Shown in pieces: positions 35,083 to 62,202 of a stretch of DNA of 64,000 bases. Within the stretch, counting starts at the first letter, position 1. Every line of letters begins with the position of its first letter. A model generated the notes under the pieces. It searched no databases. It had not been told where the DNA came from and worked only from the letters and a program-made list of their open reading frames with translations. The stretch lies in the IMG/VR virus record IMGVR_UViG_3300017605_001304, positions 85,156 to 149,155 of that record. The stretch is one strand, 5' to 3'. The DNA comes from a virus. The position numbers and the translations under genes are program-made.

Positions 35083-35107
35083 GCGGAGGTTGTCCTTGTG
35101 AAAGACC

Positions 35108-35164: not shown

Positions 35165-35173
35165 GTGAGACCA

Positions 35174-47419: not shown

Positions 47420-47587
47420 TCATTGCATGCGGTCCTCGGTCGGCCACGCGATGTCGTTCAGCACGATCCCCGGCAAGTACCCGCCCCCCGTGAAGAGGTA
47501 CACGTCCTGCGCCATCCGCGGCAGCAGCCGGCCCGTCACGTCATGCTCGTTCAGCGCACCGCACAGGTTGGCGAAGACTTGATTCAT
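47420..47587 (-). CDS. Small-array protein 1, 55 aa
   Basis: ATGA start. NQVFANLCGALNEHDV helix, then QDVYLFTGGGYLPGIVLNDIAWP. The end LNDIAW parallels LNDIFLD of array protein 25. Last gene of the array in transcription order. Confidence 0.55.
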   Translation of the reverse strand: MNQVFANLCGALNEHDVTGRLLPRMAQDVYLFTGGGYLPGIVLNDIAWPTEDRMQ

Positions 47588-47763
47588 CGCAGGACATCCG
47601 GGATCCGACACAGGAAGATCTTGAGGCTCAGCGAGTTGAAGGTGCTCGGCCAGTAGAACGGGTTGAAGCGCGACTGGCCGTACCAGTAGAGCTGATCCGC
47701 GTCGGCCGCGGCGAAGAGCTGCTGAACCAGCCTACGGTACTTCAAGTCGAGCCACGAGGTCAT
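47584..47763 (-). CDS. Small-array protein 2, 59 aa
   Basis: ATGA start. YRRLVQQLFAAADADQLYWYG, then RFNPFYWPSTFNSLSLKIFL. Very rich in Tyr/Trp/Phe. Ends RIPDVLR. Confidence 0.55.
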   Translation of the reverse strand: MTSWLDLKYRRLVQQLFAAADADQLYWYGQSRFNPFYWPSTFNSLSLKIFLCRIPDVLR

Positions 47764-47945
47764 TCCGCCGGCTCCTCGTCGAACATGCTCCTGAGCGTGT
47801 CGTAGGGCGGGTCGCCCCACAGGAACGCCCGCAGGGCGGGCAAGAGGTCCCGCATGATGACGCGCAGGTCCTCATGAAGCAGCGCGTCGTGCGCATCGGC
47901 TTCGAGCGCAGAATACTCGGAGCGCAGCACCCGCCCGACGTTCAC
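47760..47945 (-). CDS. Small-array protein 3, 61 aa
   Basis: GTGA start. LHEDLRVIMRDLLPALRAFLWGDP, ending DTLRSMFDEEPAE: helix-proline-helix with the terminal TLxxMF element common in the array. Confidence 0.55.
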   Translation of the reverse strand: MNVGRVLRSEYSALEADAHDALLHEDLRVIMRDLLPALRAFLWGDPPYDTLRSMFDEEPAE

Positions 47946-48079
47946 TCGAAGATCCTCGCGAGCGGGTGCACCGCGGCGATGTCCCGCCAGAACACGGGGG
48001 CGCCAGACAAGCCCTGGCAGAAGTAGAACAGCAGGTGGCTCGGGAAGTTGATGCAGTAGTAGTCGTAAAGCTCATACAT
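47942..48079 (-). CDS. Small-array protein 4, 45 aa
   Basis: TGATG start. MYELYDYYCINFPSHLLFYF, then GAPVFWRDIAAVHPLARIFE. Strikingly aromatic; ends HPLARIFE. Confidence 0.55.
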   Translation of the reverse strand: MYELYDYYCINFPSHLLFYFCQGLSGAPVFWRDIAAVHPLARIFE

Positions 48080-48228
48080 CAGCACGACTCCGTCAGCAGC
48101 GGTTGCAGCCACAGCGCGGAGAACAGGTCGCCGGCAAAGAAGAGCAGGTCCTGCTTGGAGAACATGATGCCCGCCGGCCCGTGCGTGTAGATGAGCTGGT
48201 GAGTCATCTTCATGAAGTGCGTGTTCAC
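48079..48228 (-). CDS. Small-array protein 5, 49 aa
   Basis: GTGA start. IMFSKQDLLFFAGDLFSALW, then LQPLLTESC. Pairs with protein 6 (shared LLTE near the end). Confidence 0.55.
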   Translation of the reverse strand: MNTHFMKMTHQLIYTHGPAGIMFSKQDLLFFAGDLFSALWLQPLLTESC

Positions 48229-48383
48229 AAGGTGTACTCCGTCAGCAGGGCGCGCAGCGACAGCGAGCCGTAAAAGCTGTGTTCCCAGAAGGGCGCGCCT
48301 TGTACCCAGCGGAGGATGGGAGTCTCCTCGATCACGCGCTCGTAGAAGAACCCGTTGCTCATCCTCCTGAAGTGCGCGGTCAT
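48225..48383 (-). CDS. Small-array protein 6, 52 aa
   Basis: ATGA start. MSNGFFYERVIEETPILRWV, GAPFWEHSFYGSLSLRALLTEYTL. Ends with the same LRALLTE type element as protein 5. Confidence 0.55.
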   Translation of the reverse strand: MTAHFRRMSNGFFYERVIEETPILRWVQGAPFWEHSFYGSLSLRALLTEYTL

Positions 48384-48484
48384 AGGAGCTTCTTCCGATT
48401 CTGCTTGCGGCGTAGGTCACGGAACAACGCAGGTACCACCCCTACCAAGGTAAGCACCACGAGGATCATTGCAAGCGGCCTCAT
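48380..48484 (-). CDS. Tiny membrane peptide in array, 34 aa
   Basis: ATGA start. One membrane helix (LAMILVVLTLVGVVPALF) and a basic tail RDLRRKQNRKKLL. Not an obvious array paralogue. Confidence 0.5.
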   Translation of the reverse strand: MRPLAMILVVLTLVGVVPALFRDLRRKQNRKKLL

Positions 48485-48585
48485 CGCAGGAGGCTCAGGA
48501 GCTTCTCGAACCCGTCGAAGAGGAGGTGAAGGAAGTTCCAGAAGCCGGCCGCGATCAGGCGGCCGACGCCGCGTACGAGGGACAT
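48481..48585 (-). CDS. Tiny amphipathic peptide in array, 34 aa
   Basis: MSLVRGVGRLIAAGFWNFLH, then LLFDGFEKLLSLLR. Short amphipathic or membrane-seeking helix; stop overlaps the next start (ATGA). Confidence 0.5.
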   Translation of the reverse strand: MSLVRGVGRLIAAGFWNFLHLLFDGFEKLLSLLR

Positions 48586-48586
48586 G

Positions 48587-50689
48587 TCAGCTCCCGATCC
48601 AGGCCCTTCCCACGCCCGGGACGAGAACCGTCCGGATGCCGGCGGGCCAACCCTGCTTGCTGAACTCCGCCGCGATGATGGGCTCCAAGACCGCGGCGAC
48701 CTTCTCGGCGTCCGGCAGGCCGCGGAACTGCGCGAGTCGGTGCAGGGCCACGCGGCCCGGTCCGTACTCGTGGTAGTACCCGCCCGACGGCATGCTCCAG
48801 GTTCCGGACTTGGGCTTCGCGTGCAGCGGGTCCGGGTCGGCCGGCAGGTTCGCCTGCGTCTGCTGCGTGACCGAGTAGTCGGTCTGGATGCGCAGCCACC
48901 ACGGCAGCGCCCCGAACTCCGAGATCGCCTTCTTCGAGCCGGGCACCTCCGTCCAGTGATTGAGCAGGATCGTCGGCGAGTACGTGCTCATCGGGCCGGA
49001 GTAGGCGACGAGGACGTCCGGCGTCCACGGGATCGACTCCAGGTCCGGAGCCGTCCAGCGGTCCGACGTCGACTTCGCGTAGCCGCGCCACCAGTTCCAG
49101 TTGTAGTAGATCAGCCGCTCGATCGCGCTGGTCGCCTGCACGAGCTGCTCACCCTGCATGAGCATCGCCGTGAACCACGCCTCCATCCACGGGCTCGCGT
49201 ACTCGGTGAAGACGGACGTGTCCCGGCCCGAGCTCGCGAAGACGCCGAGGCTGTACGCCCCGAGCGGGTGCGGTAGCTCGACCGTCTCCCACTTCGTGAG
49301 GGTCCGGTCGACACAAGTCCGGAGGTAGTCCTTGTGGGGATGGCCGTCCGGCAGAAGCCTGTACGCGAGGGAGAGATTCCGGAACGCCCACGCCTCTCGG
49401 CGTTGACCGAGATTCTGGAGCGTGCCGTCGTTCGGGAAGTTGTCCCGGATCGCGAGCAGGCACCACGAGATGAACTCGTCGAGTGCGAACTTCCTACCGG
49501 TCGTCAGCCACGTGAAGAGTCCGAGCAGAGGCATGTGGGCCGTGTTGACCACGGAAGGGTTCTTGTCCGCCGGGTCCTGGGGCGTGGCCGTCTGCTTCAG
49601 GAACGGGTGGTCGTGATGCACGCCCAGCACCGTGCTTGAAGGCGTTCGCCAGTGCGTCGAGAAGCTCCCGGACCCGTTCAGGTCCGCGTGGCGGGTGAGG
49701 CCGACGGCGGTCGGAGAGCCGCCGTTCAAGGCGTAGGCCGCCCAGCGGGGCCAGTGACCGATGTCCTCGCGGTCGGCCGTGCCGTCCATCTGCTCGTAGA
49801 TCGGCCCAGAGGCCATGGGGGCGCCGTTGGGGTCGGAGGCAGGCAGGAGCGGTCCGCGCTTCGGGTCGCGGTTGAGGGCCGTCCAGAGCGTCTGGGAGGC
49901 CGTCTCGGGGACCGGCTGGCTGAAGTCCCACGGCGGGATGATCCCGAGGTGGGCGAGGACCGTCGGGTCGAGGTCGACCTGGACCTCGGGCAGCGCCTGC
50001 CCGAGCCACACGCAGGTCGTGAAGCGGGCGCCCGGGTAGAGCTTCCCGCCCTTGCAGACGGGGAGCTCGATCGTCCTGCCGTCCGCGGCGCGCGTGAGCC
50101 AGCGGACGTTGTTGATCGTCTGGACGACGGGCGACAGATCGACGCGGCTGTTCTCGACCGCGGCTTCGACCAGGACGCCCGGCCAGCCGTCGAAGGCCCG
50201 CCACGTCACCTCGATCAGGAGGCGCGGGTGCTGGCCGAGCGGGCCCGTCGGCGGACCCACGAGGGTGACGTCGTGCACGCGGATGCCCGTGCGCGAGGCC
50301 ATCAGGAGCTGCAGCATCTGGATCGACTGCGCCGGCAGGAGCAGCGCGGCCCACGTGCCCGTGGGGTCCTTGATCTCCAGGTCGAACTGCAGCAGCGGGA
50401 AGATCTGCTTCCACGGGATCATGAAGATGTGCGGCGGCTGAGCGATCGTCGCGGGACGGACTTCGAGCTTGCTGCGCTTGCCCTGCACGTGCGCCACGTT
50501 CGCGCAGACGCGTGCGACCGCGATCGAGCCGTCGGCCCAGGTCGAGATCGTGTCGACGGACGCGTCCACGAGCTGCACGTCGTCCCAGAAGACGGACACG
50601 TAGTCCGGCATCGCCTCGCCCGGCAGGCCGACCAGTTGAGCGATCACCGGCGCTTGCGTCGTCGCCGTCTGCGTCACGAAGACCTGCAT
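48587..50689 (-). CDS. RIFT-barrel/toroid polysaccharide lyase-like protein (PcRGLX/YetA-type), 700 aa
   Basis: ATG at 50689 overlaps the previous TGA behind GGAGG. The first 90 residues include VSVFWDDVQLVDASVD and TWADGSIAVARVCANV, like the 'WPDGSxxWaxv' strand of the N-terminal RIFT barrel of exo-rhamnogalacturonan lyases. A central beta region follows. Residues about 330-690 are helical and Trp-rich (ALDEFISWCLLAIRDNF, WMEAWFTAMLMQGEQL, YYNWNWWRGYAKSTSD), like an alpha/alpha toroid. It splits the small-gene array. Together with the PL1-like protein it suggests pectin-type tail enzymes; the family call is tentative. Confidence 0.55.
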   Translation of the reverse strand: MQVFVTQTATTQAPVIAQLVGLPGEAMPDYVSVFWDDVQLVDASVDTISTWADGSIAVARVCANVAHVQGKRSKLEVRPATIAQPPHIFMIPWKQIFPLLQFDLEIKDPTGTWAALLLPAQSIQMLQLLMASRTGIRVHDVTLVGPPTGPLGQHPRLLIEVTWRAFDGWPGVLVEAAVENSRVDLSPVVQTINNVRWLTRAADGRTIELPVCKGGKLYPGARFTTCVWLGQALPEVQVDLDPTVLAHLGIIPPWDFSQPVPETASQTLWTALNRDPKRGPLLPASDPNGAPMASGPIYEQMDGTADREDIGHWPRWAAYALNGGSPTAVGLTRHADLNGSGSFSTHWRTPSSTVLGVHHDHPFLKQTATPQDPADKNPSVVNTAHMPLLGLFTWLTTGRKFALDEFISWCLLAIRDNFPNDGTLQNLGQRREAWAFRNLSLAYRLLPDGHPHKDYLRTCVDRTLTKWETVELPHPLGAYSLGVFASSGRDTSVFTEYASPWMEAWFTAMLMQGEQLVQATSAIERLIYYNWNWWRGYAKSTSDRWTAPDLESIPWTPDVLVAYSGPMSTYSPTILLNHWTEVPGSKKAISEFGALPWWLRIQTDYSVTQQTQANLPADPDPLHAKPKSGTWSMPSGGYYHEYGPGRVALHRLAQFRGLPDAEKVAAVLEPIIAAEFSKQGWPAGIRTVLVPGVGRAWIGS

Positions 50690-50880
50690 CACTTCCTCCA
50701 GTGCTTCCGCCACCATGATTTCAACTGCAACCGCAGCGCACCGACCACGACGACGGTGCGCAGCGCCGCCGAGACGTCGGGCGCGCCGGGATTCTCGAAG
50801 ATGAACAGCAGGCGCTCCGAATTACGTACGCGGCGATAGAGCTCGTACTGCAGGTGCTCTCGCTTGGTGTGGATGTTCAT
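50689..50880 (-). CDS. Small-array protein 7, 63 aa
   Basis: TGATG start. LQYELYRRVRNSERLLFIFEN, GAPDVSAALRTVVVVGALRL, basic end WWRKHWRK. Keeps the aromatic-strand then helix order of the array. Confidence 0.55.
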   Translation of the reverse strand: MNIHTKREHLQYELYRRVRNSERLLFIFENPGAPDVSAALRTVVVVGALRLQLKSWWRKHWRK

Positions 50881-51164
50881 CAGGGATTCAGCAGCCGGTC
50901 GAGGTGGACGCGCGGGACGAGGCCCAGCGCCTCGAATCGGTACGAGCCGAGCAGGTCGCACACGAACGAGTGCGCTTCCACCGACAACTGGTAGCTCTGA
51001 CGGTGCACGTCGAAGCGGGCACGCGCGGTCCTCGGCGTGCCCGACAGGAAGACGGTCTCGGGCAGGAGCACCTCGTAGTTCCAGGTGCCGCGCGTGAACG
51101 GCGGCCAGATCGTGTCGAAGGCCCAGAGCAAGAGGCCGAGCTCTTTCCCGCGTAGCAGTTTCAT
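50880..51164 (-). CDS. Small-array protein 8, 94 aa
   Basis: ATGA start. GLLLWAFDTIWPPFTRGTW, beta middle, end GLVPRVHLDRLLNP. One of the longer members, with an inserted beta segment. Confidence 0.55.
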   Translation of the reverse strand: MKLLRGKELGLLLWAFDTIWPPFTRGTWNYEVLLPETVFLSGTPRTARARFDVHRQSYQLSVEAHSFVCDLLGSYRFEALGLVPRVHLDRLLNP

Positions 51165-51385
51165 TCGGACCTCGATCGGGCCATGTCGAACCGGTAGTAG
51201 TCGAGGCCCGTATCCAGGGAGTGGACGAGCGCTCGGATCGCCCAGCCGAGCGGCTCCCAGTTATGCAGGTTCACCGTCATCCGTCCACGGAGAACGTCTG
51301 CTTCAGGTACCTGCAGCAAGACGTCCGCCATCTTGTTGAGCAGCAGGTCGTGGCGGTGCGTCATGAGCAGCGGGTCAGAGTCCAT
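51161..51385 (-). CDS. Small-array protein 9, 74 aa
   Basis: HRHDLLLNKMADVLLQVPEAD, then MTVNLHNWEPLGWAIRALVHS. The WEPLGWAIRALV phrase parallels GDALGWAFRRLF of protein 16 and GEPWQLVYWLRTLL of protein 30. Confidence 0.6.
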   Translation of the reverse strand: MDSDPLLMTHRHDLLLNKMADVLLQVPEADVLRGRMTVNLHNWEPLGWAIRALVHSLDTGLDYYRFDMARSRSE

Positions 51386-51626
51386 ACCAGAGATCCGCCA
51401 TCACCGTGTAGAGGTAGGTCCGTTCGTTCGCACGGACCATGCGGATCTGCCGCGTGCCGAGCCACATCTCCGCGGCGAAGTCCGCAGCCGCGGCGGTGAC
51501 GTCCACGTTTTCACCGTGCTCGCCCCGCAGGGTGCTGCCGGAGCCGGAGATGGTCGGCGGGGGCGGCGGGCCGAAGACTTCTTCCAGCGCCGCGGCCAGC
51601 ATCCGATGTCCGAGGTTCTGCAACAT
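51375..51626 (-). CDS. Small-array protein 10, 83 aa
   Basis: LAAALEEVFGPPPPPTISG, VTAAAADFAAEMWLGTRQIRM, end YLYTVMADLWYGL. The AAADF..... LGT phrase recurs in protein 11, so the two are probable duplicates. Confidence 0.55.
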   Translation of the reverse strand: MLQNLGHRMLAAALEEVFGPPPPPTISGSGSTLRGEHGENVDVTAAAADFAAEMWLGTRQIRMVRANERTYLYTVMADLWYGL

Positions 51627-51877
51627 CAGGCACCGATCCCGACGAACGCCCGCTCCATCGAGCGGAGCGAGTTCAAGACCCCACGCGACAGCGTCACGGA
51701 GTTCGTGCCGAGCGCGATGAACTGCAAGAAGTCCGCGGCCGCGGGACTGATCTCGCCGATCTGGTGCGCGTCCTTCGGGTCCGCGAGGTAGGTGCCGTTG
51801 ATGCGGCGGCCGGGGTCGTCGAGCGGGTACACGATGCTCAAGGCCCGGTACATGATGGTGACTTCGTTCGTGCTCAT
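51626..51877 (-). CDS. Small-array protein 11, 83 aa
   Basis: ISPAAADFLQFIALGTNSV, then LSRGVLNSLRSMERAFVG. Shares AAADF...LGT with protein 10. Starts ATG; one-base overlap with protein 10. Confidence 0.55.
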   Translation of the reverse strand: MSTNEVTIMYRALSIVYPLDDPGRRINGTYLADPKDAHQIGEISPAAADFLQFIALGTNSVTLSRGVLNSLRSMERAFVGIGA

Positions 51878-52140
51878 GCCTCGTCCAGGGCGATCAGTCG
51901 AACCTGGAGCAGCGTACCCGCGATCGCCGTGCTGATCCAGTCGCGCGGGTCACCGAAGGTCCGCAGCGCGGAGACCGTGTGTAGGTAGTCGCGATGCTTC
52001 TCGTCCGGCTCGGCGTAGGCCGACGCGATCCGCGTCATCAGCTCCTGGTAGGTGAAGAGCATCCGGTCCTCGATGCGGCTGCGGCCTCGGTTGACGACCC
52101 GCATCGGATTACCGCTGACGATGGTGGGCGGTCGCTTCAC
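51874..52140 (-). CDS. Small-array protein 12, 88 aa
   Basis: GTG start. RIEDRMLFTYQELMTRIASAY, HTVSALRTFGDPRDWISTAIAG. Its start region overlaps protein 13 by 32 bases. Confidence 0.5.
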   Translation of the reverse strand: MKRPPTIVSGNPMRVVNRGRSRIEDRMLFTYQELMTRIASAYAEPDEKHRDYLHTVSALRTFGDPRDWISTAIAGTLLQVRLIALDEA

Positions 52141-52312
52141 CGGAACCTCGCCGCATGATCTGTCGATAGACGCCGCCCACGCTGTCGGAGGCCAACACGT
52201 AGAACGACCATGTCTGCAGCGGGAGACGCGCCCAGGTCGCGAGCAACGCCCAGCGCTGCCACAGGTTCGTTTCTCGGATGTCCCACAGAAACATGATGAG
52301 GGGCCTCGTCAC
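52109..52312 (-). CDS. Small-array protein 13, 67 aa
   Basis: GTGA start. TNLWQRWALLATWARLPLQ, then WSFYVLASDSVGGVYRQIM. The NLWxxW helix matches proteins 17 and 18; WSFYVLA...GGVYRQI matches WNFWYAT...GIAVRDL of protein 14. Confidence 0.6.
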   Translation of the reverse strand: MTRPLIMFLWDIRETNLWQRWALLATWARLPLQTWSFYVLASDSVGGVYRQIMRRGSGEATAHHRQR

Positions 52313-52488
52313 GTCCAGAGTCCTAGCAGGTCCCGGACGGCGATGCCGAACGCGTCGTAGTTCGTCGCGTACCAGAAGTTCCAGGGCTGGTCGACGTGGA
52401 CCACCGGACTTGGCATGCGCAGCCAGATGTCGACCCAGAACGAGCTGCTGAGCCGCTGGAACGTCTGCCTCGTCGGGTCGAACGTCAA
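52309..52488 (-). CDS. Small-array protein 14, 59 aa
   Basis: TTG start in a TTGA overlap. SSSFWVDIWLRMPSP, then PWNFWYATNYDAFGIAVRDL, end LGLWT. Aligns with proteins 13 and 16. Confidence 0.55.
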   Translation of the reverse strand: MTFDPTRQTFQRLSSSFWVDIWLRMPSPVVHVDQPWNFWYATNYDAFGIAVRDLLGLWT

Positions 52489-52643
52489 TGGACGATCTCA
52501 AGAAGGGCACAGAGCTCCCGCGAGGTGTGCGCGTACCGGGTCGACAGAAAGATCCACGGGAACGGCCTGAAGAGGACGTGGCCGTTCGCCTGCCGCCAGA
52601 CTCCTGAGAGCGCCTCGGCCAGCCGTTCGAACTCACGCACCAT
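52485..52643 (-). CDS. Small-array protein 15, 52 aa
   Basis: FERLAEALSGVWRQANGHVLF, PFPWIFLSTRYAHTSRELCALL. Same aromatic-strand plus terminal RELxxLL arrangement. Confidence 0.55.
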   Translation of the reverse strand: MVREFERLAEALSGVWRQANGHVLFRPFPWIFLSTRYAHTSRELCALLEIVH

Positions 52644-52818
52644 GAGCGTGCTCCTCGAACAGACGGCGGAAGGCCCACCCGAGCGCGTCGCCGTTCGTGC
52701 TGTGAAACATCCAGAACAGGTCCTTCTCGAACATCGAGAGGCCGCAGCGTCGCCACATGTGCCAGCCGTAGCCAGCGATGCGTCTGTAGGTCTTCTCGGT
52801 CGGAGAGAGCGGGATCAT
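52633..52818 (-). CDS. Small-array protein 16, 61 aa
   Basis: YGWHMWRRCGLSMFEKDLFW, then FHSTNGDALGWAFRRLFEE. DLFWMFHSTNGDALGWAFRRL aligns well with protein 14. ATGA start. Confidence 0.6.
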   Translation of the reverse strand: MIPLSPTEKTYRRIAGYGWHMWRRCGLSMFEKDLFWMFHSTNGDALGWAFRRLFEEHAHGA

Positions 52819-53009
52819 GCGCGAGCCCGCGGCGAGAGGAACTCGACGAGGTACGCCCCGTGCCACACGTCCGGGCCCACCATCAGCAACTGGAAGATCG
52901 CGTCGCCAGTCACCGGGAGCGGAACGACGTTGAACCACATGCGCCAGAGGCTGTTCCGCATCTGCCGCTCGTCGTTCATGCGCGACGTCATGGTGACGTG
53001 CGGGGTCAT
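52815..53009 (-). CDS. Small-array protein 17, 64 aa
   Basis: ATGA start. MRNSLWRMWFNVVPLPVTG, FQLLMVGPDVWHGAYLVEFL. Clear duplicate of protein 18: xLWxxW, LMxxPxxWxAxYLxxF. Confidence 0.6.
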   Translation of the reverse strand: MTPHVTMTSRMNDERQMRNSLWRMWFNVVPLPVTGDAIFQLLMVGPDVWHGAYLVEFLSPRARA

Positions 53010-53173
53010 GCGAAGATCTGCTTCAAGTAGTCGGCGGACCACAGGCCCGGGCTGAGCATCAGCTCCCGAAAGCCAAGACCCTCGGGAGCCGGCATGAGTT
53101 GCGACCACCAGAGCCAGAGGTTGCAACGCATGAGCACCTCCTGCCGGATCAGCATCTTCGTCCAGGCGCTCAC
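53006..53173 (-). CDS. Small-array protein 18, 55 aa
   Basis: GTGA start. RCNLWLWWSQLMPAPEGLG, RELMLSPGLWSADYLKQIFA. Best aligned pair of this half, with protein 17. Confidence 0.6.
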   Translation of the reverse strand: MSAWTKMLIRQEVLMRCNLWLWWSQLMPAPEGLGFRELMLSPGLWSADYLKQIFA

Positions 53174-53388
53174 GGGCAGGCGACCTTCACGGCCCTGTCG
53201 AAGAACTCGGCGAGCCGCTTCAGCTCGTCCGGGCTCACGACGCGGGCCTCCTCCAGGTCCTCGCAGCAGAAGCCGATCTGGATCTTGGTCACGGGATCCC
53301 CGTGCAGCCAGATCGTCAGGTCGCCGAGCTCGAAGGACCGGATGGTCTGCGGCTCGATCTGCAGCAACGCGGGTCGATCATCGAGCAT
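53170..53388 (-). CDS. Small protein within array, possibly unrelated, 72 aa
   Basis: TGATG start. Beta-rich, acidic N-terminal part (RSFELGDLTIWLHGDPVTK, IGFCCEDLEEARVV) and helical end ELKRLAEFFDRAVKV. Lacks the Trp-helix pattern; may be a passenger gene. Confidence 0.5.
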   Translation of the reverse strand: MLDDRPALLQIEPQTIRSFELGDLTIWLHGDPVTKIQIGFCCEDLEEARVVSPDELKRLAEFFDRAVKVACP

Positions 53389-53567
53389 CACGGGCCCTCC
53401 CACTGAAGGTCAGGCGGCAGCCACGGCCGCCGCTGCGGCTCGACCATACGCTGGAAGTGCCCGAAGAGCCAGTAGACGCCGATGATCCCCGGGACCTCGA
53501 ACTCCCGCATGACGGCCGTCCGGGTGCGCTCGACCAGCGAGGCGTAGCTGCGGTCGTGGGTGTTCAC
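53388..53567 (-). CDS. Small-array protein 19, 59 aa
   Basis: GTGA start. RTRTAVMREFEVPGIIGVYW, LFGHFQRMVEPQRRPWLPP, ending DLQWEGP. Confidence 0.5.
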   Translation of the reverse strand: MNTHDRSYASLVERTRTAVMREFEVPGIIGVYWLFGHFQRMVEPQRRPWLPPDLQWEGP

Positions 53568-55328: not shown

Positions 55329-55330
55329 GC

Positions 55331-55528: not shown

Positions 55529-55530
55529 GC

Positions 55531-55953: not shown

Positions 55954-56190
55954 CTATTGAGGCAGGACGTACGACGCGATGTCAAGATCGTCGGGACCCC
56001 TTCCGATCTCGTACCAATGGTCGCTACGGTAGAGCAGGGTCCCGAAGAAGTGTGCGACGTCGTGACCGTCGTCAACGACGTAACTGAAGTTCTCTGTGCT
56101 GACGGGAATGCAGGTCTTCCCGAGGCGGATCTTCGCCAGCCGCCGGCTGAGGCGGTGCAGCCGGTTCTGCATGTCGGAGTAAAGGGACAC
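55954..56190 (-). CDS. Small-array protein 32, 78 aa
   Basis: GTG start. RLHRLSRRLAKIRLGKTCIPV, VVDDGHDVAHFFGTLLYRS, then a C-terminal extension. Pairs with protein 33 through DDGxDxxxxFxxxLY. Confidence 0.6.
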   Translation of the reverse strand: MSLYSDMQNRLHRLSRRLAKIRLGKTCIPVSTENFSYVVDDGHDVAHFFGTLLYRSDHWYEIGRGPDDLDIASYVLPQ

Positions 56191-56192
56191 GG

Positions 56193-56450
56193 CTACCTTT
56201 CCGCGAAGAGCACGTGCACGAACGCGCGACTCATGGAGCCGAGGAACGGGGCGTAGCCGCCGCTGAAGCCGTAGAGCTCGACGTCGAAGAGGCGTCGGAT
56301 GTCGTCGCCGTCGTCAGCCAGATAGGGGAGCGGCACCGGCATGAGGATGTCGACGTCGTTCACGCGGATGTCGTAGAGCAGCGTGTGCTCGATCGACGCG
56401 AGCAGCCTCCCTTGCATGCGTCGCGCGAAGTAGGACCACGCACGCTTCAT
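56193..56450 (-). CDS. Small-array protein 33, 85 aa
   Basis: ATGA start. RLLASIEHTLLYDIRVNDVD, LADDGDDIRRLFDVELYGF, then a hydrophobic C-terminal extension (SMSRAFVHVLF). Duplicate of protein 32. Confidence 0.6.
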   Translation of the reverse strand: MKRAWSYFARRMQGRLLASIEHTLLYDIRVNDVDILMPVPLPYLADDGDDIRRLFDVELYGFSGGYAPFLGSMSRAFVHVLFAER

Positions 56451-56647
56451 GAGAGGAAGTCCCACAGCGGCGGCCAGCACGAGAAGGCTGGGCAGAAGAT
56501 CGGCCCGTGCGAGCGGTTTCGGTGCGACCCCCCACTCAACTCGCGCTCGAAGTTGATCAGCAAGCGTAAGAACCCGTCATGCTCGAACGGCTGCGGGTAA
56601 TTCGGATGCTGGTACCAGCCGCGGGCGAAGAGGCAAGGCATGCTCAT
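56447..56647 (-). CDS. Small-array protein 34, 66 aa
   Basis: ATGA start. LFARGWYQHPNYPQPF, RLLINFERELSGGSHRN, end FSCWPPLWDFLS. Nearly the same ends as protein 35 at both protein and DNA level. Confidence 0.65.
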   Translation of the reverse strand: MSMPCLFARGWYQHPNYPQPFEHDGFLRLLINFERELSGGSHRNRSHGPIFCPAFSCWPPLWDFLS

Positions 56648-56841
56648 GAGAGGAAGTCCTGCAGCGGCGGCCAGCACGAGCCGATCGGGGCGACGAGTTC
56701 ATAGCGGCCGCGGAGCCGGTGTTGATCTCCGTCGACCATGTGCTCGAAGGTGAGCAGCAGGTCGATCACCTCGCCCATGGAGATGGGCCACAGGTACGGC
56801 GGCAGGTGGTACCAGCCGCAGGCGAACTCACGGATAGGCAT
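56644..56841 (-). CDS. Small-array protein 35, 65 aa
   Basis: EFACGWYHLPPYLWPI, IDLLLTFEHMVDGDQHR, end IGSCWPPLQDFLS. Clear tandem duplicate of protein 34 (CGWYxxPxYxxP; LLxFExxxxGxxHR; SCWPPLxDFLS). Confidence 0.65.
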   Translation of the reverse strand: MPIREFACGWYHLPPYLWPISMGEVIDLLLTFEHMVDGDQHRLRGRYELVAPIGSCWPPLQDFLS

Positions 56842-57079
56842 AGATGAGGCCCAGCAGGTCCGGCCACGCCGTGGTCGTCGGCACGTGCACGTAGATCCCG
56901 TACGCGCTCCGCCCACCCCAGCGGCCGAAGCCGTGATCGAACATGTCCTCGAACTGTCCGACCCAGGAGACGAAGTCCCGCCCACTGACGGAGACCTGCC
57001 GCAGCTCAGCGGACTTGTCGCCGTCGTGCCGCATGTTGTACGGCGCGCCGTAGAAGAACGGGCTCCTGAGCCGGTTCAT
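56828..57079 (-). CDS. Small-array protein 36, 83 aa
   Basis: ATGA start. MNRLRSPFFYGAPY, DFVSWVGQFEDMFDHGFG, end TTAWPDLLGLIYAYP. Same MNRLxxPFxx start as protein 39. Confidence 0.6.
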   Translation of the reverse strand: MNRLRSPFFYGAPYNMRHDGDKSAELRQVSVSGRDFVSWVGQFEDMFDHGFGRWGGRSAYGIYVHVPTTTAWPDLLGLIYAYP

Positions 57080-57270
57080 GGCTCGAACAGATCCATCAAG
57101 GACGGCCAGCACGTCATGATCGGTGCGACGAACCGATCCTCGTACGGCAACGACTCACCGTCGCCATCCAGGAACTGCTCGAACCACATGAGCAGGTGCA
57201 CGCCGCTCGCGTAGCTCTTCCAGCGGACGGCCCGGAAGGCTGGGCGAGGATCCATCCGCGGGATGTTCAT
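57076..57270 (-). CDS. Small-array protein 37, 64 aa
   Basis: RPAFRAVRWKSYASGVHLLM, WFEQFLDGDGESLPYEDRF, end CWPSLMDLFEP. Strong duplicate of protein 38 (FRAVxWxxxxxGVHLLMWF). Confidence 0.65.
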   Translation of the reverse strand: MNIPRMDPRPAFRAVRWKSYASGVHLLMWFEQFLDGDGESLPYEDRFVAPIMTCWPSLMDLFEP

Positions 57271-57410
57271 GTCCAGATCCAGTTGAACTTCGGCCAGCGG
57301 GTTTCTTCGACGCGTCCCTGGAACCACATGAGCAGGTGCACACCGTTCAAGTTCGGGGTCCAGGATACCGCACGGAAGAACGGGAAAGGACTCGTCGGCA
57401 TGAAGATCAT
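57267..57410 (-). CDS. Small-array protein 38, truncated duplicate, 47 aa
   Basis: ATGA start. PFPFFRAVSWTPNLNGVHLL, MWFQGRVEETRWPKFNW. Matches the first half of protein 37, then diverges and stops without the WPxLxDLF end: a shortened or frame-altered copy that still fits the overlap pattern. Confidence 0.6.
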   Translation of the reverse strand: MIFMPTSPFPFFRAVSWTPNLNGVHLLMWFQGRVEETRWPKFNWIWT

Positions 57411-57676
57411 CGCAGCAGGTCCTGCAGATGTGGCCAGCTATCCGACTCGGGCATGTGCAGCGCGTACGTGAGGAAGCCATGCGTGCGCGGACCGAGGAAG
57501 CCGCTGAGCTGCTCCTCGAACCACAGCAGCATGCCGATCCCGGTGTCCCTCCCGGCGGCGTCGGCGAGGCCGTAGAGCACCATGTCCTCGAAGAACTGGT
57601 AGTGCTCCCGGTGCCGGCTGTCCGCGAGTCGCGGCAACACGCCGCTGCAGTAGAACGGCGTCTTCAAGCGGTTCAT
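57407..57676 (-). CDS. Small-array protein 39, 89 aa
   Basis: ATGA start. MNRLKTPFYCSGVL, HYQFFEDMVLYGLADAAG, GMLLWFEEQLSGFLGPR, end DSWPHLQDLLR. Combines the MNRL start of protein 36 with the LLWFEEQL / WPxLQDLL elements. Confidence 0.65.
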   Translation of the reverse strand: MNRLKTPFYCSGVLPRLADSRHREHYQFFEDMVLYGLADAAGRDTGIGMLLWFEEQLSGFLGPRTHGFLTYALHMPESDSWPHLQDLLR

Positions 57677-57879
57677 TCCAGGACGTCCGTGACCCAGTCG
57701 CTCGTGAGGAACGGCGCCGCCAGCGCGTCCGGGGTCCAGTCCCAGACACCCGTCAGCGTGCCCGCCATCTGCCACCAGAAGTTGCTCAGCACGACCTCCG
57801 AGGCTTCAACCCGATCGTGCAGGTCGATGTTCAAGAGGCCCTGCTGGATGTGAGGATTGAACGGCGAGGTCAGCGTCAT
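57673..57879 (-). CDS. Small-array protein 40, 68 aa
   Basis: ATGA start. MTLTSPFNPHIQQGLLNID, EVVLSNFWWQMAGTLTGVWD, end TSDWVTDVLE. First of five consecutive members with an EVxxxFW..LTG core. Confidence 0.6.
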   Translation of the reverse strand: MTLTSPFNPHIQQGLLNIDLHDRVEASEVVLSNFWWQMAGTLTGVWDWTPDALAAPFLTSDWVTDVLE

Positions 57880-58130
57880 GGGCGTCCCAGGTCGTGGAGC
57901 ATAACCGGCCCTATCAAGAAGTCGTAGACCGGCGCGATCACGGCCGGACGCCACGGGAAGGAGCCCCAGGCGTGGACGCCGTAGAGCTCCATCCAGAAGA
58001 CGCAGAGGAAGTAGACGCCGCTGGACACGTAGCCCTCGGGCATGTCGGCCCCGATGCGGCCGAACTCGTCGTAGATCTCGGTCGCGCGAGGGGCACGGAG
58101 CTGAGCGAACGGGCTGCGGAGGGGAATCAT
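57876..58130 (-). CDS. Small-array protein 41, 84 aa
   Basis: ATGA start. MIPLRSPFAQLRAP, IYDEFGRIGADMPEG, YFLCVFWMELYGVHAWGSFP, WRPAVIAPVYDFLIGPVML. Aligns with 42-44 over IYxxFxxxG, FWxxLxG, WR...YxF..G.M. Confidence 0.6.
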   Translation of the reverse strand: MIPLRSPFAQLRAPRATEIYDEFGRIGADMPEGYVSSGVYFLCVFWMELYGVHAWGSFPWRPAVIAPVYDFLIGPVMLHDLGRP

Positions 58131-58384
58131 CCGAGCGCGTCCTCGATGTCGTAGATCGGGCGACGGCTCGTGATCCCGCGCATGAACGGATAGAGCGGCG
58201 AGGCGCCGTCCGCTCGCCACGCGTAAGCCCCGCTGCCGGCGGCTCCCGTCAAGTGCAGCCAGAAGCGGCGCAAGACCACGTGGCCGTCGTAGTCGCCACC
58301 CAGGTCGCCGACCTGGATGAACGCGCGGTAGATGCGCCGGTCCGCTTCTACCGGACTGTAGGTCCCGATCCCGAAGTGGAACAT
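58127..58384 (-). CDS. Small-array protein 42, 85 aa
   Basis: TGATG start. EADRRIYRAFIQVGDLGG, HVVLRRFWLHLTGAAGSG, YAWRADGASPLYPFMRG. Member of the five-gene block. Confidence 0.65.
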   Translation of the reverse strand: MFHFGIGTYSPVEADRRIYRAFIQVGDLGGDYDGHVVLRRFWLHLTGAAGSGAYAWRADGASPLYPFMRGITSRRPIYDIEDALG

Positions 58385-58620
58385 CAGTAGAACATCCTGG
58401 CGATCATGTTGCCGCACGCGAACTCGTAGAACCCCGCCGCCACGTTCATGCGCCAGCGGTGTCCGCCGGTGTTTACCACGCCGGTCAAGAGCTCGCAGAA
58501 GTGCACCAGGACCTCGTGACCACTCCGATCCAGCGGGCAGGGCCCGACGAGGGTGAGCGCCTCGTAGATCCGACGGTCCACGTCGTTCGCGAGCTTGGTG
58601 AACGGGGCGCCGGGGAACAT
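58384..58620 (-). CDS. Small-array protein 43, 78 aa
   Basis: TGATG start. MFPGAPFTKLANDVDRRIYE, HEVLVHFCELLTGVVNTGG, HRWRMNVAAGFYEFACGNMI. Closest to protein 44. Confidence 0.65.
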   Translation of the reverse strand: MFPGAPFTKLANDVDRRIYEALTLVGPCPLDRSGHEVLVHFCELLTGVVNTGGHRWRMNVAAGFYEFACGNMIARMFY

Positions 58621-58856
58621 CAGCGCAGGTCCCGGAACGTCATGTGGCCGCACAGGAACCGGTACGACCGAGCGTGGGCCGACGGGCGCCACGGACGGCC
58701 GCCGAAGCTGCTCACGCCGGTCAGGTGGCGGGCGAAGCTGTGCAGCACCTCGAACGGGTGGCGCTGGCGCTCGTAGGTGATCCGGGCGAACGCGACGCGG
58801 ATGCGTTCGTCGATTGCCACGTTGGAGTCGCTGCCGAACATGCTGGGCGGGAACAT
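58620..58856 (-). CDS. Small-array protein 44, 78 aa
   Basis: TGATG start. MFPPSMFGSDSNVAIDERIR, FEVLHSFARHLTGVSSFGG, RPWRPSAHARSYRFLCGHM, end RDLR. Duplicate of protein 43 with the same length. Confidence 0.65.
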   Translation of the reverse strand: MFPPSMFGSDSNVAIDERIRVAFARITYERQRHPFEVLHSFARHLTGVSSFGGRPWRPSAHARSYRFLCGHMTFRDLR

Positions 58857-59038
58857 CAGCGCACCTTGTCACTGTTCAGCAGGCTCTGGAGCAAGAACTC
58901 GGGCAGGGAGCCTTCGAGATCCACGAAGTCGTCGTCGTCGATCAGCCTGTCGACGAACCGACGGAGCTCAAGACTCTTGTCCGTGTCCGAGGCCCACGGA
59001 TCTTGAAGCAGGCCGGCTGGCCACGTGAGGATGCGCAT
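58856..59038 (-). CDS. Small-array protein 45, 60 aa
   Basis: TGATG start. MRILTWPAGLLQDPWASD, acidic middle (DDDDFVDLEG), end LPEFLLQSLLNS. Shares WPxGLxQDPW with protein 46. Confidence 0.65.
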   Translation of the reverse strand: MRILTWPAGLLQDPWASDTDKSLELRRFVDRLIDDDDFVDLEGSLPEFLLQSLLNSDKVR

Positions 59039-59229
59039 CAGGATCGTCCCGTGTCGAGCAGCTCCTCGACCTCGCTGGCCAGCGCCTCCCACCCGACCAG
59101 CTCGCCGAAGGACGTGTCCGACAAGATCCGGTCGAGCTCGTCAGGGATCAGGGTGATCAGCATGGTCGCCCGGTGTGGACGTCGCTCCGACCATGGATCC
59201 TGCACGAGTCCCTTCGGCCACCGGAGCAT
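59038..59229 (-). CDS. Small-array protein 46, 63 aa
   Basis: MLRWPKGLVQDPWSERR, LIPDELDRILSDTSFGELVG. Tandem duplicate of protein 45. Confidence 0.65.
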   Translation of the reverse strand: MLRWPKGLVQDPWSERRPHRATMLITLIPDELDRILSDTSFGELVGWEALASEVEELLDTGRS

Positions 59230-59231
59230 GG

Positions 59232-59399
59232 TCAGATCTCTACCGGTACGAACTGGCGGAGCCGCCAGCGCGGGATCACGGTGAACTCTTCGAGCAGCTC
59301 AAGATACCAGAGTTCGTCCAAGAACGGGACGGCGGCTACTGGGGTGCCATAGCCCGGCAGGAAGGTCGCGTACGAGAACGAGCTGACGGAGATCAGCAT
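59232..59399 (-). CDS. Small-array protein 47, 55 aa
   Basis: MLISVSSFSYATFLPGYGTP, VPFLDELWYLELLEEFTVIP, end WRLRQFVPVEI. Resembles proteins 49 and 50 in the FL ... EL.xL ... P.x.L..F order. Confidence 0.55.
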   Translation of the reverse strand: MLISVSSFSYATFLPGYGTPVAAVPFLDELWYLELLEEFTVIPRWRLRQFVPVEI

Positions 59400-59545
59400 C
59401 GAAGCAGCGGGTCCAGGAGCCGTCCCATGTTGAGGAACATGGGGCCGAATCCGTGGTGGAGGAGTGACGCGTCGCCGTCCGCAAGGACCGCGGACCATAC
59501 GAAGTGCGGTCCGTGTCGGAGGCGGATGAAGGCGGCGAGTTCCAT
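59393..59545 (-). CDS. Small-array protein 48, 50 aa
   Basis: TGATG start. MELAAFIRLRHGPHFVWSAV, DASLLHHGFGPMFLNMGRLL, end DPLLRC. Confidence 0.55.
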   Translation of the reverse strand: MELAAFIRLRHGPHFVWSAVLADGDASLLHHGFGPMFLNMGRLLDPLLRC

Positions 59546-59724
59546 CACCGTAGTTCCACCGGGAACGGCGGGAGCCACAGGTCGAGGAGGAACGACGGGC
59601 TCACGTGCACCCACAGCCGCATGAACTCCATGGGCGTCGAGATGCCCGCGCCGGTGAAGTCGAACCTGCCCCTCAAGAGGAAGGGAGCCTTCGCGAGGTT
59701 GAAGGACAGCGAGTCGATGTTCAT
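59545..59724 (-). CDS. Small-array protein 49, 59 aa
   Basis: ATGA start. LSFNLAKAPFLLRGRFDFTG, EFMRLWVHVSPSFLLDLWL. Shares LAKxPFLxxxF and SPxFLxxL with protein 50. Confidence 0.6.
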   Translation of the reverse strand: MNIDSLSFNLAKAPFLLRGRFDFTGAGISTPMEFMRLWVHVSPSFLLDLWLPPFPVELR

Positions 59725-59861
59725 TCGAGCTCGATAAGGAACGCCGGGCTCGTGTAGACGGACAGGTCCACGAGCTCGGACGGCAGAAGCGGGAGCTCGA
59801 ACGGCGCCCCTACGAGGAAGGGGCCCTTCGCGAGTAGGAAGAGTATCCCGTGGGCAGTCAT
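59721..59861 (-). CDS. Small-array protein 50, 46 aa
   Basis: ATGA start. ILFLLAKGPFLVGAPFELP, DLSVYTSPAFLIELE. Duplicate of protein 49. Confidence 0.6.
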   Translation of the reverse strand: MTAHGILFLLAKGPFLVGAPFELPLLPSELVDLSVYTSPAFLIELE

Positions 59862-60034
59862 CGGGGCGGATCCACCATGAACGAGCGGAGCACCGTCCTC
59901 CACATCACACGCGCCAACGCGGACTCGTCCCCGTTCGTCCAGAACGTCAGCAGCGGCTCCCACCAGCTAACGGCGTACGGCACCGGGTCGAGCTCCGTGA
60001 AGTGCGGCCCTTGGATGTACTGGTTAAGGCGCAT
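59858..60034 (-). CDS. Small-array protein 51, 58 aa
   Basis: MRLNQYIQGPHFTELDPVPY, SWWEPLLTFWTNGDESALA, end MWRTVLRSFMVDPPR. One of three consecutive members with an MxLxxYxxGxxF start. Confidence 0.65.
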   Translation of the reverse strand: MRLNQYIQGPHFTELDPVPYAVSWWEPLLTFWTNGDESALARVMWRTVLRSFMVDPPR

Positions 60035-60185
60035 CGCAGTCCTTGAACAGCGGCAGCAGCCGGAAGAGGACCTGCCGAGGACGCACGAGACCGTTGAACG
60101 CCCACAGCAGCCCGTCCCACGGGAGCCACGGATTCACCCGCATATCGTCGAAGCGCGGACCCTTGATGTAGTCGTGCAGCGTCAT
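60024..60185 (-). CDS. Small-array protein 52, 53 aa
   Basis: ATGA start. MTLHDYIKGPRFDDMRVNP, WDGLLWAFNGLVRPRQVLF, end RLLPLFKDCDAP. Duplicate of 51 and 53. Confidence 0.65.
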   Translation of the reverse strand: MTLHDYIKGPRFDDMRVNPWLPWDGLLWAFNGLVRPRQVLFRLLPLFKDCDAP

Positions 60186-60325
60186 CGGTCGATCATCCGC
60201 AGGAAGATGATCCGGAAGGTGAAGGAGAGCGGCTGACCGCCACGGAGCAGGATCTCCGCTGCGGGGCCCACTGCGCTGAACAGCCCGATGTAGGGCGCCC
60301 CGTGGCGGTAGTCGTTCAGCGTCAC
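60182..60325 (-). CDS. Small-array protein 53, 47 aa
   Basis: GTGA start. MTLNDYRHGAPYIGLFSAV, ILLRGGQPLSFTFRIIFL. Third of the MTLxDY group. Confidence 0.6.
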   Translation of the reverse strand: MTLNDYRHGAPYIGLFSAVGPAAEILLRGGQPLSFTFRIIFLRMIDR

Positions 60326-60510
60326 GGCACGAGCTCCAGCAGCAGCGTCCAACTGGTCAGCCTGGGCCGGAGCAGCGGCGTGGCGCAGAAGGGCATGATC
60401 GTCCAGACGATGTCGATGACGCCACGGGAGCCGTAGAGCTGGGTCGGGTACAAGACCCCGTAGACGAGGCCGTTGTAGCTCGGCGGGTAGTCGCCACGTA
60501 CGAGCCTCAT
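60322..60510 (-). CDS. Small-array protein 54, 62 aa
   Basis: ATGA start. RGDYPPSYNGLVYGVLYPTQ, TIMPFCATPLLRPRLTSW, end LLLELVP. Shares CATPLxRPxxLTxxL with protein 55. Confidence 0.65.
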   Translation of the reverse strand: MRLVRGDYPPSYNGLVYGVLYPTQLYGSRGVIDIVWTIMPFCATPLLRPRLTSWTLLLELVP

Positions 60511-60689
60511 GACGGGAGCCAGTGCAGCAGGCCCGTGAGATCCCCGGGCCTCGTCAGCGGCGTGGCGCAGAGGGCGATGAGCACCGCGGCCGTGTCCACG
60601 AGCGCGGGCGAGACAGCGTCGCCCTGACTCAAGACGTCGAGCACGAAGTTGATCCAGGTCGGTCCGTAAACACCACGGAAGGGATTCAT
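60507..60689 (-). CDS. Small-array protein 55, 60 aa
   Basis: ATGA start. FRGVYGPTWINFVLDVLSQG, LIALCATPLTRPGDLTGLL, end HWLPS. Duplicate of protein 54. Confidence 0.65.
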   Translation of the reverse strand: MNPFRGVYGPTWINFVLDVLSQGDAVSPALVDTAAVLIALCATPLTRPGDLTGLLHWLPS

Positions 60690-60871
60690 GAGCGTCGCCC
60701 GAAGTGGTTGACGAGCTCGCACAGCGGGCCCTGCGAGTTCGCGAAGGCGAAGTCCCCCCACATCGGGACGCCGCTTCCGAAGCGGAGCAGGCGCATCGCT
60801 TTCCGGTCATCCAGCGAAAGGACGATCAGCAGCTCGTTGAGGACCGGATGCACGTTCACACGTGGCTTCAT
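60686..60871 (-). CDS. Small-array protein 56, 61 aa
   Basis: ATGA start. VHPVLNELLIVLSLDDRKA, GVPMWGDFAFANSQGPLCEL, end VNHFGRRS. Confidence 0.55.
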   Translation of the reverse strand: MKPRVNVHPVLNELLIVLSLDDRKAMRLLRFGSGVPMWGDFAFANSQGPLCELVNHFGRRS

Positions 60872-61092
60872 ACCAGCATCTGCCCTTGGCGACCGTCGAC
60901 CTCCAGGAGCTCCGCGAGGACGTTACCAGGATACGCGAGCGGCGTCTCGCTCAAGCGCGTCAGCGGGTGCATCGCCTCCATGGTCAAGATCCACGCAGGC
61001 GTACGGAGCTCGAACCAGCTCGTGGCCCGGACGGTGCTCGTCAGGAGGGCGACCAGCTCGCCCGCGGTCGGGACGTCGTCGACGCGCCTCAC
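60868..61092 (-). CDS. Small-array protein 57, 74 aa
   Basis: GTGA start. AGELVALLTSTVRATSWFEL, PAWILTMEAMHPLTRLSETP, end LAYPGNVLAELLEVD. Confidence 0.55.
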   Translation of the reverse strand: MRRVDDVPTAGELVALLTSTVRATSWFELRTPAWILTMEAMHPLTRLSETPLAYPGNVLAELLEVDGRQGQMLV

Positions 61093-61238
61093 GAGAGCAG
61101 CGCCAGCGGGAAGAAAGCCATCCACCGCATGCACGGCATGTACGCCTCGGCCTGGACCGCGGCCGCCCAGTACACAAGCTGCGGCGGTAAACGCCGGCTC
61201 GATCCTTCCAGCAAGTAACGATGCCAGGGGCGGATCAT
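61089..61238 (-). CDS. Small-array protein 58, 49 aa
   Basis: ATGA start. MIRPWHRYLLEGSSRRLPP, LVYWAAAVQAEAYMPCMRW, end FFPLALLS. Shares the M(I/T)RPW start with protein 60. Confidence 0.55.
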   Translation of the reverse strand: MIRPWHRYLLEGSSRRLPPQLVYWAAAVQAEAYMPCMRWMAFFPLALLS

Positions 61239-61453
61239 CGCACCGAACCCCAGAAGTCGGAGAGCCCGGCGATGTATCGCGACATGCTCCAAAGGATATC
61301 CAGCGGCAGGTACTCCTGCGCGCCGTCATACCGCGGCGCCGTCCCTGCGGCGTAGAGCACGTTGACGTAGTCGGTGAACCGGTGCCACTCCGCGGTGGAC
61401 ATCTCCCCGCGGATCACGCTCTCGAAGGTGGGCAGCGGAGGCCAGCGGGTCAT
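61235..61453 (-). CDS. Small-array protein 59, 72 aa
   Basis: ATGA start. MTRWPPLPTFESVIRGEM, FTDYVNVLYAAGTAPRYDG, EYLPLDILWSMSRYIAGL. Confidence 0.55.
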   Translation of the reverse strand: MTRWPPLPTFESVIRGEMSTAEWHRFTDYVNVLYAAGTAPRYDGAQEYLPLDILWSMSRYIAGLSDFWGSVR

Positions 61454-61668
61454 CCGTCATCCTTCGGGAGGAACGTGGTCGGCCGGACCAAGTAGGCCGC
61501 ACGGCGATTGCCGTCGATCCTCGGAGCGTCCACGACTCTCGCGATCCTCCAGATAGCGCCGTCCACGGCGCTAAGGGTGCGCCAAGAGGCACCGACCAAG
61601 CTCGACTGGATCTCAGTCGAGATGCGAGACAGCGGTTGCGGATTGCGCCTGCGCCAGGGGCGGGTCAT
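61450..61668 (-). CDS. Small-array protein 60, 72 aa
   Basis: ATGA start. MTRPWRRRNPQPLSRISTE, ASWRTLSAVDGAIWRIARV, end RPTTFLPKDDG. The final FLPKDDG resembles FPADDG and FPRDDG of proteins 61 and 62, as if the gene stopped midway through that unit. Confidence 0.55.
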   Translation of the reverse strand: MTRPWRRRNPQPLSRISTEIQSSLVGASWRTLSAVDGAIWRIARVVDAPRIDGNRRAAYLVRPTTFLPKDDG

Positions 61669-61814
61669 CGGAGAGGTATCCGGGTCTGCAGCAGCTCCAC
61701 GGCGCGCCACAGCAGGTGCATCGAGATGTGGTCCTCGACGCGGAGGAGTAGATGACGCCCATCATCCGCAGGGAACGCGGAGAGATGACGCCCCAAGAGC
61801 ACTCGCTGCGTCAT
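61665..61814 (-). CDS. Small-array protein 61, 49 aa
   Basis: ATGA start. LGRHLSAFPADDGRHLLLRV, then MHLLWRAVELLQTRIPLR. Shares FPxDDGxxxLxxxED with protein 62. Confidence 0.6.
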   Translation of the reverse strand: MTQRVLLGRHLSAFPADDGRHLLLRVEDHISMHLLWRAVELLQTRIPLR

Positions 61815-62011
61815 CGTAAGGGCCTCAAGATGAAGGTCAGCAGCACATGCAAGTCGACGATCGAGCTCTGGAAGGTGGGCAGGACTTCGAGTGATACGGC
61901 GCGGTGCAGGCCGGTGATCAAGGTGCGGTCCTCACCCCGGTGGAGGTACAGCAGGCCGTCATCCCTCGGGAACGAGGCGAGGCGGCGTACGAAGTCCAGG
62001 CGCTCGATCAT
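61811..62011 (-). CDS. Small-array protein 62, 66 aa
   Basis: TGATG start. FVRRLASFPRDDGLLYLHRG, LHRAVSLEVLPTFQSSIVDL, end LRPLR. Duplicate of protein 61. Confidence 0.6.
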   Translation of the reverse strand: MIERLDFVRRLASFPRDDGLLYLHRGEDRTLITGLHRAVSLEVLPTFQSSIVDLHVLLTFILRPLR

Positions 62012-62202
62012 CACACGCGTCCTTGGAGCAGTCGAAGGAGCGCTTCCTGCATACACGTAGAAGGAGGCGGCCACGTGACACGAAGCTCCGCCGCGTCCAG
62101 CAGTTCGCGCACGAGGAGCTCTTCGTCACGGCGAGTGAAGTAGCGAGAGGCCCACTCCTGCGGTCCGCTTCGTAAGCGGGCGATGAGCAGCCGGTTGATC
62201 AC
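62011..62202 (-). CDS. Small-array protein 63 (first in transcription order), 63 aa
   Basis: GTGA start. MINRLLIARLRSGPQEWASR, LLVRELLDAAELRVTWPPP, end EALLRLLQGRV. The TWPPP..... LLxLL end recalls CWPPLxDFL of proteins 34 and 35. Confidence 0.55.
   Translation of the reverse strand: MINRLLIARLRSGPQEWASRYFTRRDEELLVRELLDAAELRVTWPPPSTCMQEALLRLLQGRV

Follow-up and report, generated by a model that had tools for sequence, protein, structure and literature searches.

Arrays of small overlapping genes with a recurrent C-terminal motif in a distant T4-related myovirus

Overlapping micro-genes in three arrays

The IMG/VR virus record IMGVR_UViG_3300017605_001304 is linear and 149,155 bp long. The window analyzed here, the right-hand 64 kb (64,000 nucleotides) of this record, contains on its minus strand a run of 65 consecutive small open reading frames (micro-ORFs) at 47420-62202, termed array 1. 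The ORFs were identified with a codon-based gene caller whose training set of long genes includes only one from within the array, and the chain was recovered independently in this way. Four ORFs at 61450-62202 were missed by the caller because of their lower GC content at third codon positions (GC3) and were added by hand; with these, array 1 reaches exactly the end (62202) given in an initial annotation of this DNA. The giant tandem array described in that annotation is real, and its frames are small, with a measured length of 29–96 amino acids (aa; mean 64 aa) in place of the 34–109 residues first reported. The 1–4-base stop/start overlaps noted at most junctions were likewise found, as 53 of 64 junctions have an exact overlap of the 4-base (ATGA) or 1-base (TGATG) type. 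Three arrays of the same style are present on the contig, with ~93 micro-ORFs in total (65 + 19 + 9), and array 1 is interrupted by a 700-aa gene (48587-50689).

47420-62202 (window), minus strand: array 1, 65 micro-ORFs, transcribed from 62202 down to 47420
3924-6976 (contig), minus strand: array 2, 19 ORFs of 34–71 aa, which show LWxxFxPG and end in LLGARR-type sequences; may extend to about contig 3560
49918-51934 (contig), plus strand: array 3, 9 ORFs of 66–87 aa; the first members have MNFKxRY starts and LFRDRS ends

A chain of this kind could in principle stem from a sequencing or assembly artefact, from frameshifts that split a long gene, or from ORFs that arise by chance at high GC content. 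High GC does lengthen chance ORFs, and the coding model gives low scores to a few members, but this explanation is strongly disfavored and retains hardly any probability. Start codons are placed exactly at the overlaps, and the longest exact-overlap chain in array 1 comprises 17 ORFs, compared with a mean of 5.3 and a maximum of 9 in order-3 Markov shuffles of the region (n = 200); other viral DNA (1.86 Mb) contains no chain longer than 6. Chains of at least six contain 48 of the ORFs (shuffle mean 3.0, maximum 26). The GC content at codon positions 1/2/3 is 0.63/0.44/0.88 in the micro-ORFs and 0.62/0.46/0.88 in the other genes of the phage, and the frames therefore look translated. Members are also paralogous at the protein level, and the neighboring genes are intact.

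A Shine-Dalgarno-like motif precedes 41% of the array genes, compared with 82% of strong genes and 14% of random positions, and this weak signal would fit translation through termination-reinitiation. Relative to the other proteins of the phage, the 93 micro-proteins are enriched 2.2-fold in tryptophan and 1.5-fold in phenylalanine and contain only 0.34-fold as much lysine; they are neutral, with a median net charge of 0.

A C-terminal motif in otherwise diverse proteins

Most members carry a motif, L-x-[DE]-[LI]-[LF], located 1–7 residues before the C-terminus. It was scored as a loose pattern (hydrophobic-x-x-hydrophobic-hydrophobic in the last 16 residues) and a strict one (L-x-x-[LIVMFW]-[LF]). 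In array 1, the loose pattern is present in 47 of 64 proteins, with 32% expected by shuffling. Arrays 2 and 3, which were held out from the definition of the motif, contain the loose pattern in 21 of 28 proteins (p = 1.7e-6) and the strict form in 12 of 28 (8.5% expected, p = 1.2e-6), and over all arrays 74% of members have the motif compared with ~31% in shuffles. Among the other proteins of the phage, the loose and strict forms occur in 18% and 2%, and the N-terminal 16 residues of the micro-proteins are not enriched (loose pattern in 16 of 64 in array 1 and 6 of 28 in arrays 2 and 3). The xPLxDLF-like C-terminal element pointed out in the initial annotation is thus statistically strong and extends beyond array 1. 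Residues outside the pattern are biased as well, with Asp/Glu at +2 (3.0–3.6-fold) and Arg/Gln at +1. An unguided search returned a mixed, C-terminally biased motif, in which 34 of 92 sites lie no more than 9 residues from the C-terminus (~18 expected), a weaker result than that of the guided test.

The codons at the motif positions vary (CTC/CTG/TTG and TTC/CTG/CTC), so selection acts on the protein; a nucleotide-level origin of the motif, in which a common DNA signal would precede the start of every gene, was rejected on the same grounds. In 21 related pairs, the last 14 residues are 45% identical and the bodies 35% (Wilcoxon p = 0.01, an optimistic value as the pairs share genes). In the closest paralogue pair, the last 37 nucleotides are 95% identical and the bodies about one third identical.

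Relatedness among the micro-proteins was found to be mostly local. Alignment scores above the 99.9% shuffle level were obtained for 20% of adjacent pairs, in keeping with the similarity of neighbors reported in the initial annotation, and this fraction decays to 11% at a distance of two genes, 5% at three, and 0.3% beyond ten. Iterative hidden Markov model (HMM) searches with decoys yielded 11 clean families of 2–8 members and three families with decoy hits; when the latter were set aside, 55 of the 93 proteins were singletons. When profiles were compared with hhalign against column-shuffled controls, the comparison that had been proposed for the set, only two array-2 clusters were linked, so that profile similarity beyond neighbors is largely absent. 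A single paralogous family was accordingly rejected at the detectable level; what stands of the original claim of paralogy is its local part, and array 1 appears from its sequence to be a series of small local expansions by tandem duplication, in blocks of 2–8 genes. The blocks are arranged as follows (window coordinates, all on the minus strand, in the order of transcription).

61450-62202, minus: 5'-most block, ORFs 62011-62202, 61811-62011, 61665-61814, 61450-61668; the first three form a family; GC3 below the rest
60686-61453, minus: ORFs 61235-61453, 61089-61238, 60868-61092, 60686-60871; singletons joined via 4-base overlaps
60322-60689, minus: paralogue pair 60507-60689 / 60322-60510; Smith–Waterman (SW) score 62
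59858-60325, minus: ORFs 60182-60325, 60024-60185, 59858-60034; N-termini alike, MTLxDYxxG in the first two
59545-59861, minus: paralogue pair 59721-59861 / 59545-59724; LAKxPFL, SW score 67
58856-59545, minus: ORFs 59393-59545, 59232-59399, 59038-59163, 58856-59038; from gene calling
57673-58856, minus: family of five, 58620-58856, 58384-58620, 58127-58384, 57876-58130, 57673-57879; FxxxLTG ... WR
56447-57676, minus: family of six, 57407-57676, 57267-57410, 57076-57270, 56828-57079, 56644-56841, 56447-56647; WFExxL ... C-terminal CWPxLxDLF
56447-56680, minus: 3' ends of the two closest paralogues (56447-56483 and 56644-56680), 37 nucleotides at 95% identity
55954-56450, minus: weak pair 56193-56450 / 55954-56190; SW score 46
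55531-55821, minus: 96-aa ORF with a hydrophobic C-terminal stretch; differs from its neighbors and is probably unrelated to other array members
54651-55534, minus: ORFs 55331-55534, 55173-55334, 54988-55176, 54818-54991, 54651-54818; singletons
53749-54654, minus: block 54397-54654, 54188-54400, 53961-54191, 53749-53964; C-terminal TLxDIF/TLRDLL
53170-53749, minus: ORFs 53564-53749, 53388-53567, 53170-53388; singletons
52309-53173, minus: block 53006-53173, 52815-53009, 52633-52818, 52485-52643, 52309-52488; W-rich, RDLL/KQIF C-termini
50689-52312, minus: ORFs 52109-52312, 51874-52104, 51626-51877, 51375-51626, 51161-51364, 50880-51164, 50689-50880; mostly without the C-terminal motif
48587-50689, minus: 700-aa gene inside array 1, homologue of an 896-aa gene at contig 12935-15625
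47420-48585, minus: 3'-most block, ORFs 48481-48585, 48380-48469, 48225-48383, 48079-48228, 47942-48079, 47760-47945, 47584-47763, 47420-47587; from gene calling

In the 3'-most block, the N- and C-termini of the proteins from ORFs 48079-48228 and 48225-48383 are more alike than their middle parts. Over the pooled paralogue pairs, the proportion of nonsynonymous differences (pN) is 0.39 and that of synonymous differences (pS) 0.46; near-equality of the two suggests fast change and is not proof of positive selection.

These data bear on the possibility that all members descend from a single strand-turn-helix protein, in which case the motif would be the last helix of its core and the bodies would have diverged past detection; a host-directed function would still be possible for such a set. 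Several observations point this way. Strand-like hydrophobic alternation was detected 9–17 residues upstream of the motif (p = 0.0005 pooled, p = 0.004 in arrays 2 and 3), there is one weak HMM link across arrays, the two array-2 clusters merge at the profile level, and the mean cross-cluster hhalign probability is slightly above that of the shuffled controls (0.61 vs 0.17 on a scale of 0–100). However, most clusters have no profile links, 55 proteins are singletons, the alternation is not significant among singletons (p = 0.22), and AlphaFold models of two clusters, for which few paralogues were available as input, are too poor to show a fold (mean predicted local distance difference test scores of 55 and 44). 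Of the proteins outside all families, 47 are 34 aa or longer; 35 of these have the loose pattern (p = 9e-9) and 23 the strict one (p = 4e-11). The motif is no less frequent in singletons than in the set overall, and for this reason a functional C-terminal element common to the members is favored over pure common descent. The single ancient fold is considered rather unlikely.

Possible roles and comparison with known systems

The record encodes a Gp23-type major capsid protein (window 14523-15959). Other parts of the contig carry a Gp20 portal gene, RecA/UvsX-like, DnaB-like, UvsW-like and flap-nuclease genes and a gp21-like region; the phage is a distant T4-related myovirus. Together with its T4-type head, it has a family-A DNA polymerase with a uracil-DNA glycosylase domain fused at the N-terminus (contig 34510-37386). 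The nearest records found were G001 (63 kb; capsid protein ~48–50% identical) and G008 (104 kb). Micro-gene chains were not found in these syntenic relatives, both of which are fragments, a limit on the verdict for arrays 1 and 2; the site that corresponds to array 3 is occupied in G001 by a few small genes of an ordinary kind.

Homologues of the micro-proteins were searched for in several ways. A Pfam, PHROGs and PADLOC scan of 78 of the 93 proteins gave only isolated matches with E-values of 0.007 or worse, and none of the 93 was assigned to a known family. No match was obtained by tblastn with 26 micro-proteins concatenated in two queries against phages, or with eleven of those 26 against plasmids. 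A PDB profile search with three cluster profiles returned nothing convincing, and a conserved-peptide search of viral contigs found no homologues. Close relatives may have escaped these searches.

Taken together, the observations point to micro-genes that are translated, specific to this lineage and quick to diversify, with a C-terminal element in common. Small orphan genes that occur in clusters in phage genomes usually act on the host. We favor, with a rough probability of 0.45, a reading of the arrays as accessory operons that encode a large, fast-changing set of small cytoplasmic host-acting proteins with a common C-terminal element. The genes arise and diverge by local tandem duplication; each array would be produced as one transcript and translated by termination-reinitiation. 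The variable bodies would meet different host targets, for takeover or counter-defense. The C-terminal element would be what the members have in common, serving as a tail that docks on one hub or forming the conserved last helix of a small strand-turn-helix fold in which everything else has diverged beyond recognition. One candidate for the hub would be the prohead core, in which case the proteins would be packaged and injected in the manner of T4 internal proteins; a different protein of the phage or one of the host would be a further candidate. The "diversifying repertoire of binders" suggested in the initial annotation is, we infer, the best functional description. A more specific form of this proposal, in which the ~93 mostly unrelated micro-proteins of the three overlapping-gene arrays are sent to one hub by an interchangeable C-terminal tag, and in which the tail is retained and the body renewed through tandem duplication, so that the arrays constitute a binder-making system, is unlikely as a whole.

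Several points weigh against the accessory-operon reading. The closeness of pN to pS could reflect relaxed constraint, and synonymous sites are near saturation. About one quarter of the members lack the motif, and the strand-like alternation upstream of it may indicate one ancient fold without a docking tag. The p-value for conservation of the tail is optimistic, as the 21 pairs share genes, and the function, expression time, partner and hub of the proteins are hypothetical.

If the accessory-operon reading is correct, some 20 of the 149 kb of the contig, about one seventh, encode tiny orphan proteins that have a tail in common. The arrays would then serve as natural experiments on the origin, diversification and retention of new small proteins, as well as a rich source of inhibitors of host or defense functions. 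The common motif makes the central question, the binding partner of the tail, directly testable, and accessory regions of this kind may be lost in their entirety when standard gene calling and homology filters are applied.

The initial annotation knew of no comparable phage system. Precedents do exist, although at a smaller scale. The host-takeover module of Bacillus phage SPO1 comprises 26 contiguous, mostly small genes acting on host processes (PMC6873191) and resembles the arrays as a contiguous cluster of small genes, but neither tandem paralogy nor a common terminal motif is described for its genes (PMC6873191), and they have ribosome-binding sites typical of highly expressed genes, unlike the weak ones of the arrays. 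The rudivirus SIRV2 encodes 12 AcrID1 homologues that are clustered with other putative anti-defense genes (PMC11065993), and thus also has many small paralogues in one viral genome. These form one recognizable family of mostly single genes in an archaeal virus, many with their own promoters, whereas the arrays encode many unrelated bodies in overlapping operons.

The closest parallel in logic is offered by the T-even internal proteins (Ip1-3 and relatives). These are small, non-essential and variable; at least 10 have been reported, and the known ones block different host restriction enzymes (PMC12373910, PMC9026906). If the micro-proteins were a set of this type, their C-terminal element would direct them into the prohead, so that they would be packaged and injected together with the DNA. 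The T4-type head of the phage, with its Gp23 capsid protein, Gp20 portal and gp21-like region, is compatible with this idea, and the T-even proteins, like those of the arrays, are small accessory proteins that have only a short terminal targeting tag in common and differ in their bodies (PMC12373910, PMC9026906). In T-even phages, however, the tag that directs packaging is N-terminal, the proteins are described as basic rather than neutral and rich in W, F and L, and a few genes lie at two T4 loci compared with ~93 overlapping genes here. The sequence [LI]xE was found within the last 18 residues of only 25 of the 93 micro-proteins. An internal-protein-like set is therefore quite improbable, and membership of the arrays in this class is not shown.

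The same holds for membership among the clients of the T4 sliding clamp. In T4, gp43, gp33 and gp55 dock on one hub, gp45, through an interchangeable hydrophobic and acidic C-terminus (PMC2988020) that resembles L-x-[DE]-[LI]-[LF] in character, and the arrays could likewise encode different proteins that bind a T4-like clamp through a common C-terminus. Only three proteins are involved in T4, and here gp45 was not found by tblastn or Pfam (in a linear metagenomic fragment, with Pfam searches lacking a positive control). The polymerase of this phage belongs to family A, with its uracil-DNA glycosylase domain, and its own C-terminus lacks the motif; the recognized replication proteins lack the strict motif. 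This alternative is extremely unlikely.

A role as stoichiometric virion parts made from a polycistronic message, also raised in the initial annotation, was considered in view of the 700-aa gene within array 1. This gene matched no known family and is homologous not only to the 896-aa gene listed above but also to a gene of 759 aa that adjoins baseplate genes of G001, and it is probably tail-associated. The extreme divergence of the micro-proteins, the failure to find arrays in relatives that have their head and tail genes in common with this phage, and the weak ribosome-binding sites (41% vs 82%) speak against virion parts, which are very unlikely.

Neighboring genes and other elements of the contig

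The gene downstream of array 1 is a neighbor and shows no sign of membership in the system.

45906-47291 (window), minus strand: AAA+ ATPase gene; closest to Delftia phage PhiW-14 gp235 (41%)

On the upstream side, the array overlaps by 4 bases with slightly larger small genes of different character, most of them with GTG starts, which extend over 62199-63849 up to the end of the contig. Two neighboring tandem paralogues of 552 and 589 aa, 32% identical and without a PHROG or Pfam match, are encoded at window 24601-28028.

Upstream of array 3, ~810 bp at contig 49108-49917 contain no called genes and have strong predicted hairpins, including the inverted repeat CGACCCCTGCAGGAGGACCTGCAGGGGTCG; an Rfam search of this region gave no match. 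The palindrome ACCTGTAATACAGGT was rejected as a promoter of the arrays, as no sites were found upstream of them. It recurs, exactly or in close variants, at window 30938-30946 and at contig 3525, 39771, 52298, 66588 and 75104. Several sites, such as those near contig 39780 and 52313, adjoin a TTGAC(C) sequence similar to a -35 element, and judged by its sequence the palindrome looks like an operator and promoter element of the phage.

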